A stretch of DNA of 64,000 bases. Source: Mesostigma viride. Taxonomy: Eukaryota > Streptophyta > Mesostigmatophyceae > Mesostigmatales > Mesostigmataceae. The stretch spans positions 3,413,609 through 3,477,608 of the forward strand of contig RPFO01000027.1 in the NCBI GenBank assembly GCA_009746045.1, written 5' to 3'. The notes beneath the pieces are model-generated. The model had not been told where the DNA came from, did not search any database, and was given only the letters and a program-made list of their open reading frames with translations. Below, piece by piece: positions 14,441-63,600 of this stretch. A program made the position numbers and the translations under genes. Position 1 is the stretch's first letter, and every line of letters begins with the position of its first letter.

Positions 14441-14833
14441 ATGAATGCAAACAAATTATGCACACTTGCGCACCCCCCCCACCACCACCACCACCCCCGC
14501 AGGAACCTCTCCACCTCGCACATCCCGCCAATCCCGTCCAAAAATTGCCGAACCGATGCGGACGACAAGCACACCAAGGCGCGCACGACCCACCGGCCGC
14601 TCTCCCTCGCTTCTACTTGCGCCTGCGTCACTGCCACGCTGCTCCTCCTGGCGATCTGTGTGTTGGCGTTCGCATGGGACTTTCGAGGTGGGCCGCTATA
14701 CTCGCACACCGCCACAACGGCTCTGTTGAGCAGCATCTACCCACCGCCTGCACCTCCCCCCGTGCTGGACGATGAGGCACCGTTCCGCCTGCTGGACGCG
14801 GCCATGGTCAACCGCATGGTGGCGCACGCGCAG
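14441..14833 (+). CDS. Cupin gene exon 1
   Basis: Ends [10 protein letters not shown] before donor GTGAGG, phase 0. Contains the membrane helix and a Pro-rich linker ([10 protein letters not shown]). The His/Pro-rich first 20 codons come from a CCA repeat and may be untranslated or intronic. Confidence 0.6.
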
Positions 14834-17800
14834 GTGAGGTGCATGAAAACCTTTTCCATAATAGTTTTGTTTATACTAGCCACTATGTTGTAGAGTGCGC
14901 ATGACCAACGATTCTTGAATAGGGTTCCTATTTGTTTATACTAGCCACTATGTTGTAGAGTGCGCATGACCAACGATTCTTGAATAGGGTTCCTAAAAGC
15001 GCTGGTGTCGCATTGAAAGCACAGGCAAAGTGGCTAGGACCCTGGATTGTACGCTAGTGTCTAGATATGTGTCTATGAGTAGGGCCCTGTATCTGTAGAT
15101 ACTAGTGTACGATCCAGTGTCTTTAGATGTGTGTCTGTTTCTGCTGGATTGCGCAGCAGGCCGGCAGGCTGGCGTCGCACGCGCAGGCTCCAAATTCCAT
15201 GTGACATTTAGCAAGCCCCTTTGAGGCTTTTCGACGGCATCATTATGGTCGTGCCAACTCCCTTGATAAACACCATTTTCACTATTTGACCCCAAAGGGA
15301 GTTGCCTTGAAAATGGCGTACGATACACTTCCCCTACTTAACCTTCATTCGTAGGCAGCATTATCGCAAGCCAGTAGGGGGTTGCCGTGCCAAGCCGTAG
15401 TAGAAGTGTGTCGTGAACGACCCCTACCCACATGGGCAGTCCCACGAGCCTGAGTCGTAGACAGCCCAAGGTACATGAACAACCGCTCCCCCCCATGGGC
15501 AGTCCCACGAGCCTGAGTCGTAGACAGCCCACGGTACCCAAATTTGCTGCCTCTTGTTTGGTTTAAGGGTCATGCTCCCATCCGTCATGCCGCGTTCGTG
15601 TGCACTGGGGTCCATGTAGTACAACAGAACTGGGTTTATATGCCACTTGGCTAGCATGAGGGTTTTCATCCGACACTTGGCTAGGATGAGGGTTTTCATC
15701 CGGCACTTGGCTAGGATGAGGGTTTTTATCCGGCACTTGGCTAGGATGAGGGTTTTCATCCGGCACTTTACTAGGTGCTCATCTGGCGCGTTACTAGTTG
15801 CGCATCTGGCAGTTTACTAGGTTCTCATCTGGCACTTTACTAGGTGCGCATCTGGCACATAGCTCGGTGCTCATCTGGCAGTTTACTAGGTGCTCATCTG
15901 GCACTTTACTAGGTGCTCATCTGGCACTTTACTAGGTGCTCACCTGACATTTACCTAGGTGTTCATACGGCAGTACACAAGAATCAGGATCTTGTTGTTT
16001 GCTGCCAGCCCTGTGTGCACGCGCAGGGGTCCTTGTCACTCCGACATTGTCATATGATACAGCCCATCACATCTATGCTTTAGATCACCTTTTCCTTTTC
16101 TTCTCCTGGCCCAACGTCAATTATGCCCCCAACGCTTCATTACGCGCAGGGTTTCGTGTCGCGCCGACATTGTAATACAACCCAATATACTTCCTATGCA
16201 TCTTGTTGCCTATCTCTCCCCCCCACCGCCCCCCAACTTCATGCGCTGGATTCCGTGTCGAGCCGGCGTGTTGTTATTTACCTAATTCAGTCCATCAGTT
16301 CTATGCTGTTGACTACCCCTTCCTTTTTGCCGCACCCCCCCTCCCCCCCACACACACCTCCATGCTCAGGGTTCCGTGTCGCACCAGCATTGCTCTGATC
16401 CTAGTAAAACCCATTAGTTATTATGCCCCTACCTGTTACCTATCTCCTTTTTGCCCCCCCCCCCCCCCCCCCACACAAACCTCCACGCGCAGGGCTCCGT
16501 GTCGCGCCAGCATTGTTCTGATCCTGGTAAAACCCATTAGTTATTATGCCCCTACCTGTTACCTATCTCCTTGTTGCCCCCCCCCCCCCCCCCCCCCACA
16601 CACCTCCACGCGCAGGGTTCCGTGTCGCGCCGGCATCAACACCTGATCCTCCGGCCCGCAGGCGCAAGTGGGGCCAGCCAAGGGGGCGGCAATGAGCACG
16701 GCCAGGGGGGAGACCCTGGGGGTGGGGAGGACCTGCCCACCACGGGACTGATGGATGGTGATGCGGTCAGGTTTTCGCTCGATGCTGTTCAGGTGTGTGG
16801 GTAGCTCATGGATGTCGTCTCGCACGCGTTTGAGATGGCATTGGTCGGTTGTCTTGCATCGGTTTTTTTAGTTCAAAGCTGGTCAGATGTGTGACCACTT
16901 AGGGCCGACTCCCACGAGTCATGATCCGTAGTTCGTGAGCACACTTGTCATACGTGGCAGGAATCTTCTCACGGCCTCGCCGGATAGTGCCGGAAAACGG
17001 CCATGATTCGTGACCTGACTTTGGGTTTTGCGGGAAATCGTGTCGCGGCCCGTGTTCATATTGGAGCGAAAAGTCCACGTGTCCGTGAATAGAACCTGAC
17101 AAGTGCGAAAGAGACCTATAAGTACGGAAATTGATGGTACGAATTCAGTCGGCGTAGGACCAGTACGGCAGGGTGCTGAAGAAACCTGGACAGCTTTGAT
17201 CCAGCGAAGCCGGTCTCGCCCGCTAGAATTTAGTATCGTCCAGTAAAGACCAATACACACTGGGTACCGCCGAATGTTCAGAATACGGTAGCGTAGATAT
17301 CCCGCTGTATGTGTCCATCCAAGGACAGGTGGCTACAAGGAGGAGTTTGAGGAGCGCGGAAAAGCGCGGAAAGTGCGGAAACGTGAGCAAAAAAGGTACT
17401 GTGAACCGATCTCAATCTTTTTTTCCCGAACAAGCCAAACGCCCGCGACCCGCCGTGTGAGTGCGACCCGGTTCGTCAACCCATTTTCGTTCCGCGTGGC
17501 AGAAGGTTCGATGCCACGCGGCAACGCGGTTCGCGGACCATGACCGTACGAGCCACGGATCGCGACCCCTGTGATTCGGCCCTTATTGATGTTTTCTCAT
17601 AGATGTGACAGCTGGCGATGCGGCCTGGAAGGATGCGGATGTGGCCCATGTTCTGCTGTCGATGCTGATCAGGTATGTGACAACCGGCAGCACAGCGAAG
17701 GATGGGGGATGTGATCGCTGGAAGTGCGACCTAAATCTACTCACAGAGATTATTTGGCCACTTTGGTGCAACGGGATGAGAAGCTGAGGGCAAGACTGCT

Positions 17801-63374: not shown

Positions 63375-63535
63375 TACTCGCATGCGCGCACTGAGCCATA
63401 CATGGCCACCACTACCTGGCCAGCAATGGAGAGCCATGGGTCAGGGCATGGGGAACCCGCCAAGAGCACCGGGGTCGCTTGCAACGAAAACTGTGGCTGC
63501 GCAGAGTCATATGTGGTGGCATCCACCTGGACAGT
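63375..63535 (-). repeat. Exon a acceptor echoes
   Basis: CATGGCCACCACTACCTGGC (63,401) and GTGGCATCCACCTGGACAGT (63,515) copy the junction GCAGCCACCACCACCTGGAC at 63,285; the second keeps CCACCTGGACAGTCAT. Confidence 0.82.
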
Positions 63536-63600
63536 CATTAATTAATCTATATACAGGTAGACTGCGTCCCGTGAGGATAGGAGAAGAAAGGAAGGCATGA
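63536..63600 (-). mobile_element. Degenerate LINE-A tail
   Basis: TTAATTAATCTATATACAGG then TAGACTGCGTCCCGTGAGGA resembles the reversed LINE-A terminus (ACTGCGTCACGTGAGCATAA). Confidence 0.6.

Follow-up and report, generated by a model that had tools for sequence, protein, structure and literature searches.

Why should introns hold diverged copies of their own splice junctions? The question is raised by a 64,000-nucleotide (nt) stretch of the Mesostigma viride genome (G000:C335:3413609-3477608, contig RPFO01000027.1, in an assembly of 439.9 Mb and 2,243 contigs), here called the window, in which pieces of exon edge and adjoining intron recur as direct copies, or echoes, inside the neighboring intron. 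These junction copies in the own intron are real, dense in the window and uneven between genes, and we consider it probable that they are the inner copies of serial short local tandem duplications whose unit straddles a splice junction.

Genes A, B and C of the window were rebuilt from open frames, each as a single frame with all introns GT-AG, giving seven exons for gene A on the plus strand and, on the minus strand, two for gene B and 12 modelled in the window for gene C; the 18 modelled introns total 25,005 bases. Matching against Pfam identifies gene B as a DUF3172 protein (E 2.9e-58) and places SNF2 and helicase C domains in gene C, whose alignment with ERCC6 crosses five splice joins (C1-C2, C2-C3, C5-C6, C6-C7 and C7-C8); gene A is without a Pfam match. 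Borders were placed by frame and splice signals, with the echoes already visible for the A2 acceptor, gene B and C9-C11, so that these models are not blind. To the 36 window junctions we added 82 from outside it, in the 5' part of gene C and in SRP54, M16-peptidase-like and kinesin-3-like genes, for a total of 118 in six genes. A small purpose-written exon finder predicted those M16 and kinesin exons that query-protein matches did not reach, and pieces of window introns served as the comparison for the outside genes.

With probes of 40 exon and 20 intron bases and a null of 300 length-matched pieces from other introns, the direct match in the own intron beat all 300 random pieces at 27 of the 36 window junctions, and inverted matches reached p ≤.01 in the same test at 2 of 36. 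A catalogue at a score of at least 25 holds 60 echoes at 26 of these junctions, with 1 to 5 at each except C6.A, where 10 lie in a single minisatellite that contains no exon bases; 21 of the 26 carry single to triple diverged copies. Under a strict rule (score of at least 29 and at least 7 exon bases in the copy), a direct exon-holding copy was found at 37 of the 118 junctions. The inverted control gave 1/118, and exchanging introns between junctions, the comparison asked for in an earlier note on this DNA, gave a mean of 0.35/118 (range 0-2, 20 rounds). The wrong side of the exon, examined for exons 110 nt or longer, gave 0/54. The copies are thus direct, on their own side and in their own intron, in agreement with that note's proposal of repeated local tandem duplication across junctions, and its view that they are not one transposon family likewise holds. 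An artefact of assembly or reads is scarcely credible for copies that differ from their originals, occupy many different offsets, respect the frame, occur in direct orientation and were found on four contigs.

The echoes stay close to their originals. Nearest-echo offsets are 68-149 nt in 24 of the 37 strict cases and 68-158 nt at 21 of the 26 catalogue junctions, and in 34/37 the nearest copy lies 29-230 nt from its own junction, where the median intron is 1299 nt long. The description of the introns as built from such copies proved too strong. Exon-holding echo blocks occupy 1,615 of the 25,005 window intron bases (6.5%), so that the introns are lengthened by copies rather than made of them; the zones spanning each junction to its most distant echo take up 32.6%. 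Similarly, the statement that nearly every exon edge has 1-5 copies holds for the 26 catalogue junctions, but the strict rule retains 23/36, and ten window junctions have no echo even at a score of at least 25.

A simple sequence of steps could produce this pattern. A duplication straddling a junction would yield two splice sites, and use of the outer one would leave the messenger RNA (mRNA) unchanged, so that the event would be tolerated and the intron would grow. New units would form beside the junction and displace older ones inward, giving rows more decayed with distance, as the inner copies would drift like neutral DNA. Because selection on the protein would freeze the exon, one half of each pair would stay legible, making junction duplications conspicuous while intron-internal duplications of equal age fade. 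The mutational step may be staggered-break repair or replication slippage. The outer sites are presumed to be the spliced ones; the earlier claim placing the used sites always outermost holds in part by definition, and the used sites here are predicted. The exons and echoes of the window are listed below, with signed numbers giving positions about the junction.

14503..14833, plus strand: exon A1 of gene A, start uncertain (frame, GT-AG; donor at 14834)
16616..16792, plus strand: exon A2 of gene A (acceptor set by frame with the echo array visible)
16018-16047, 16142-16170, 16234-16267, 16351-16390 and 16474-16513, plus strand: five A2 acceptor echoes
17628..17679, plus strand: A2 donor echo, -43 to +7
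19671..19981, plus strand: exon A3 of gene A (frame); neither edge with a detectable echo
20149..20201, plus strand: exon A4 of gene A (frame)
20046..20086, plus strand: A4 acceptor echo, -14 to +27
20282..20302, plus strand: A4 donor echo, -7 to +14
21717..21910, plus strand: exon A5 of gene A (frame)
21960-21987, 22019-22042 and 22193-22221, plus strand: three A5 donor echoes
23210..23262, plus strand: exon A6 of gene A (frame)
23099..23133, plus strand: A6 acceptor echo, -16 to +19
23383..23424, plus strand: A6 donor echo, -29 to +9
24616..25078, plus strand: exon A7, 3' end of gene A (frame)
36946..37367, minus strand: exon B1 of gene B, DUF3172 protein (frame, Pfam)
34396..34693, minus strand: exon B2 of gene B (frame, Pfam)
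36832..36865, minus strand: B1 donor echo, -18 to +16
34954-34972, 35155-35169, 35438-35457 and 35580-35608, minus strand: four B2 acceptor echoes
63203..63298, minus strand: exon C1 of gene C, SNF2 family (frame, Pfam, ERCC6 alignment)
63099..63140, minus strand: C1 donor echo (C1.D), -26 to +16, 41/42 identical, with some 46 nt of unrelated spacer before the original
61554..61892, minus strand: exon C2 of gene C (frame, ERCC6 alignment)
61478-61522 (-92 to -48), 61401-61433 and 61317-61349 (both -27 to +6), minus strand: C2 donor echoes
60565..60728, minus strand: exon C3 of gene C (frame, ERCC6 alignment)
60866..60906, minus strand: C3 acceptor echo; remainder of the 158-nt unit homologous
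58709..58835, minus strand: exon C4 of gene C (frame)
58465-58496 and 58560-58584, minus strand: C4 donor echoes
58027..58194, minus strand: exon C5 of gene C (frame, ERCC6 alignment)
58271..58311, minus strand: C5 acceptor echo, tandem unit 101
57929..57999, minus strand: C5 donor echoes, period 39
55895..56152, minus strand: exon C6 of gene C (frame, ERCC6 alignment)
56157-57141: G-rich minisatellite in the intron upstream of C6
55793-55833 and 55650-55672, minus strand: C6 donor echoes
54417..54515, minus strand: exon C7 of gene C (frame, ERCC6 alignment)
54598..54619, minus strand: C7 acceptor echo
54278..54317, minus strand: C7 donor-side echo, exon bases -45 to -5
53366..53475, minus strand: exon C8 of gene C (frame, ERCC6 alignment)
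53549-53598, 53825-53853, 53955-53987 and 54050-54069, minus strand: C8 acceptor echoes
53179..53210, minus strand: C8 donor echo
51959..52022, minus strand: exon C9 of gene C (frame)
52058-52127, 52169-52203, 52242-52265 and 52598-52617, minus strand: C9 acceptor echoes
51176..51231, minus strand: exon C10 of gene C (frame)
51298-51328 and 51358-51384, minus strand: C10 acceptor echoes; offset 77, 11 exon bases
49604..49682, minus strand: exon C11 of gene C (frame)
49499..49530, minus strand: C11 donor-side echo, -34 to -4
47840..47979, minus strand: exon C12 of gene C (frame)

A version of gene B with three exons was rejected: its middle open frame, 35170-35300, resembles an echo stack, and B1 and B2 join in frame.

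At part of the junctions, tandem structure is visible beyond the copied blocks themselves. Of 32 units tested, 14 (7/11 acceptors and 7/21 donors) were homologous over their remainder at p ≤.05, 5 of the 37 strict echoes being too short for testing, and at C5.A, C9.A, C10.A and A6.A the exon-derived part of the copy is continued by the beginning of the intron flank of the original, in the fashion of a tandem unit. A first test on whole units found intron parts 70% identical, exon parts 86% and null pairs 63%, with 6/19 units at p ≤.05; it excluded C2.D and C9.A (exon share >0.5) and four units by a length filter, so that it overstated the exon-share bias. The lower identity of the intron parts is in the direction expected if only the exon half is frozen. 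The order of decay also fits serial duplication at the junction, the nearer of two copies at one junction having the better score in 35 of 42 pairs with the C6.A minisatellite excluded and in 56/63 with it. At the A2 acceptor, five echoes (16018..16513) spaced by about 100-123 nt form a tandem array of period 123 with 19-21 exon bases each, and likeness drops with distance in all but one pair. Exon-boundary depths differ by at most 3 nt in 47% of 43 same-junction pairs versus 22% between junctions, a common boundary which suggests that some rows are small arrays from one founding event.

Several observations weigh against serial tandem duplication. The first is that 14 of the 21 donor and 4 of the 11 acceptor units are without significant homology past the copied block, and that the young C1.D (41/42) and M4.D (M16 gene; 95%, stopping 2 nt beyond the exon) have abrupt ends, unexpected for a simple tandem unit as long as the offset, barring later deletion, filler or templated copying. 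Given such young donor copies that stop abruptly beside unrelated spacers, templated copying or later deletion also occurs. Were short templated insertion the general rule, broken intron ends would be mended with a 30-50-nt exon-edge block instead of a tandem unit, as C1.D, M4.D and A4.D, all young, abrupt-ended and lacking a homologous remainder, might suggest; yet inverted copies would then be expected too, and distance should not follow decay. With the near absence of inverted copies, the decay order above and the homologous remainder in most of the tested acceptor units, we regard this account as improbable. Telomere-like filler, as in the C1.D spacer, was dropped as a hallmark of break repair in general: the seven such nine-mers in window introns come from one array and that spacer, and elsewhere 220 kb hold 1 versus 3.1 expected.

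The second point is the shallow reach of the copies into the exon. With probes of up to 100 exon bases, 36 of the 37 nearest echoes hold at most 47 (median 25); restricting a hand count to exons of 110 nt or more leaves 20 echo-bearing junctions, of which 1 shows deeper reach. Simulated units of 90-100 nt beside 150-nt exons reach deeper in 20/42 to 41/53 cases. Short real exons account for part of this shallowness, and selection against longer exon copies, as potential cryptic exons, is a plausible reason for it; alternatively, break positions may be limited at the exon edge, so that units rarely take in more than about 45 exon bases. Capping the simulated reach at 45 nt restored the depth and brought the echo rate down to 18/60 and 24/60.

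The third point concerns junctions compared with intron interiors. With anchors of low complexity or short length removed (8/36 window junctions and 11/82 outside), sensitive probes found degenerate local copies in the window at 22/28 junctions, at 12/28 anchors placed 60 nt into the intron and at 16/64 placed 150 nt or more into it (23/28, 14/28 and 18/64 in an earlier run), and outside the window at 19/71, 9/54 and, in the deep interior, 8/81. Junctions thus exceed the deep interior at p 2e-6 in the window and p.01 outside. Six transposon-like, intergenic or mixed window stretches gave rates of 4-15%, and a no-duplication simulation control on random genome DNA sets the floor of the test at 9-10%. 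In junction-blind simulations with frozen exons and real-DNA seeds, whose variants took in large deletions, insertions and fast indels, junction and interior rates were nearly equal (widest gap 0.46 vs 0.32). The real contrast exceeds every one of them, so that by this test junctions are over-represented.

Such an excess would be expected if junctions or exon edges were hot spots of duplication to a degree that the legibility of frozen exons does not account for; breaks at the edges of exon nucleosomes, R-loops or stalled splicing could be the cause. The shallow exon reach points the same way, as does the drop in simulated echo rate once reach is capped. Under this tentative alternative, breaks or template switches clustered in the roughly 45 nt nearest the exon edge might repeatedly copy the junction inward, and introns would then grow from their ends with the order of copies recording the growth, a picture that we hold to be possible but doubtful. 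With clear repeats taken as events and compared at matched identity, however, spanned junctions number 5, 9, 14 and 17 of 118 at ≥93, 88, 82 and 76%, an excess over the interior of 2.0-, 2.5-, 2.7- and 2.2-fold (p.10,.01,.0007 and.002) that falls inside the 0.75-2.87-fold range of the junction-blind frozen-exon simulation. The junction excess is here near the frozen-exon prediction, and the sensitive and matched-identity tests disagree. The youngest class, 5/118, gives p.10. Median copy offsets, 107 in the interior and 117 at junctions, are alike, which suggests that one process seemingly acts through the whole intron, and the real order of decay (35:7) is no stronger than the 21:4 of one simulation and hence lends targeting no support. 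Together with a sample of six genes, these results make junction targeting rather unlikely.

The fourth point is the spread of echoes between genes, for they are much denser in the window (23/36) than at the 82 junctions beyond it (14/82; Fisher p 1e-6), and we found no reason for this. The window is an extreme sample, as expected since it was picked for its striking look. By gene, strict echoes occur at 7/12 junctions of A, 2/2 of B, 14/30 of C, 2/8 of SRP54, 8/18 of M16 and 4/48 of kinesin, with SRP54 and M16 together (10/26) richer than kinesin (p.004). In the 5' part of gene C (64587-68672 in window-style numbering), strict exon-edge echoes occur at 0/8 junctions of four introns 875-1577 nt long, again with no reason found; the 300-piece test there gave 1/8, C1.A alone, by a match with 4 exon bases only. 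The same test gave 2/8 for SRP54, and for M16 and kinesin 20/66 at p ≤ 1/301, against 4/66 inverted; 12 of these 20 matches include 7 or more exon bases. With these rates outside the window, and none in the 5' part of gene C, the echoes do not occur at essentially every junction, as had been proposed. Donors (25/59) exceed acceptors (12/59) under the strict rule (p.017). Over all genes, echo-bearing junctions sit in longer introns (median 1299 vs 795 nt, p.006), a difference absent within genes A-C (p.60) and marginal within the other three (p.051).

Do the copied splice sites serve any purpose? If copies were kept to tune splicing, as selected decoys or regulatory sites, their dinucleotides should stand out, and in junction-spanning echoes GT is retained in 11/18 and AG in 17/21. 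Combined, the 28/39 retained compare with 624/941 other dinucleotides in the same blocks, so that splice sites are kept little better than other bases, a neutral-like drift in which they are neither kept nor purged. With no extra conservation, and with 81 of 118 junctions lacking a strict echo, we rejected the copies as functional decoys, and with them the idea that rows of working decoy sites are planted; selection of this kind is very improbable.

Serial tandem duplication has relatives among described processes. Short tandem duplications arise when staggered double-strand breaks or paired nicks are repaired, and among small insertions in the human genome tandem duplications are the commonest kind, according to the accessible part of PMC5730883. 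This is a named class of events; the earlier note knew of no named mechanism acting in such a way at essentially every junction. Like the echoes, those duplications are direct, local, tandem units, at times repeated or with templated extras; as far as that part of the paper goes, they were induced at a cut site, whereas here aged rows with short exon reach are seen at junctions, from sequence alone. Intron gain through tandem duplication of an exonic AG/GT site is described in the available portions of PMC2891723 and PMC4974935. It shares with the echoes an exon-touching tandem duplication that is tolerated as splicing removes the extra copy, and differs, judging from the portion of PMC2891723 at hand, in that here existing introns grow, the unit straddles an existing junction and the copies lie beside their own junction. 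By our derivation, that model would place the upstream exon end at the 3' end of the intron and the downstream exon start at its 5' end; such opposite-end copies were not met among the nearest copies, which in 34/37 lie beside their own junction, as given above.

Introner elements, as far as PMC7789003 is accessible, form families common to different introns and have inverted repeats. They resemble the echoes in being repeats tied to exon-intron borders and differ in that the copies here match their own junction only, among the introns of the six genes, and the swapped-intron control makes introners unlikely. Minisatellite arrays of the window have a similar unit scale, and echoes occasionally form arrays (period 123 at A2, 39 at C5), but most echoes are one to three diverged, junction-anchored copies. 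No report of junction echoes was found in searches of an open-access library, most subscription papers lying outside it, and the accessible parts of PMC7617258, PMC11228838 and PMC9612004 contain nothing on them. What seems unreported is the density, at about one third of the tested junctions and two thirds of those in the window.

The frozen exon serves as a ruler: copies can be dated against a hardly changed sequence, so that intron growth by duplication could become legible junction by junction. To our knowledge, intron lengthening by routes other than transposon insertion is poorly documented. Rows of true-looking splice sites also offer a natural test of the spliceosome's choice of the outer site, and, were junctions hot spots of duplication, splicing or exon chromatin would be tied to genome instability.

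Some minor observations were made in the same sequences. In the kinesin gene, an intron at L030 1213-1725 (joined 11213-11725 of L020+L030) begins with ATATCCTT, ends with AC and joins two exons in frame; we take it to resemble a minor-spliceosome AT-AC intron, and a simple pattern found no branch motif in its last 60 nt. The 5' exons of SRP54 were not found in the 13 kb upstream of exon S1 (L029 and L024 1-3374), where a large tandem array lies (L024 about 61-2820), which points to a very long intron. On another contig, G000:C1502:1000001-1010000 (L028) consists of ten kb of tightly packed open frames, presumably akin to endogenous giant-virus DNA. Within the window, positions 1-10700 hold minus-strand open frames bounded by a 27-bp tandem repeat present both at 317-375 and at 10566-10624, in the manner of a long terminal repeat (LTR) retroelement. 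Fragments like long interspersed nuclear elements (LINEs) lie at 25300-33200 and 39450-44250, and a 601-bp piece at 30000-30600 has at least 40 matches in the genome, 39 of those listed being at 95% identity.

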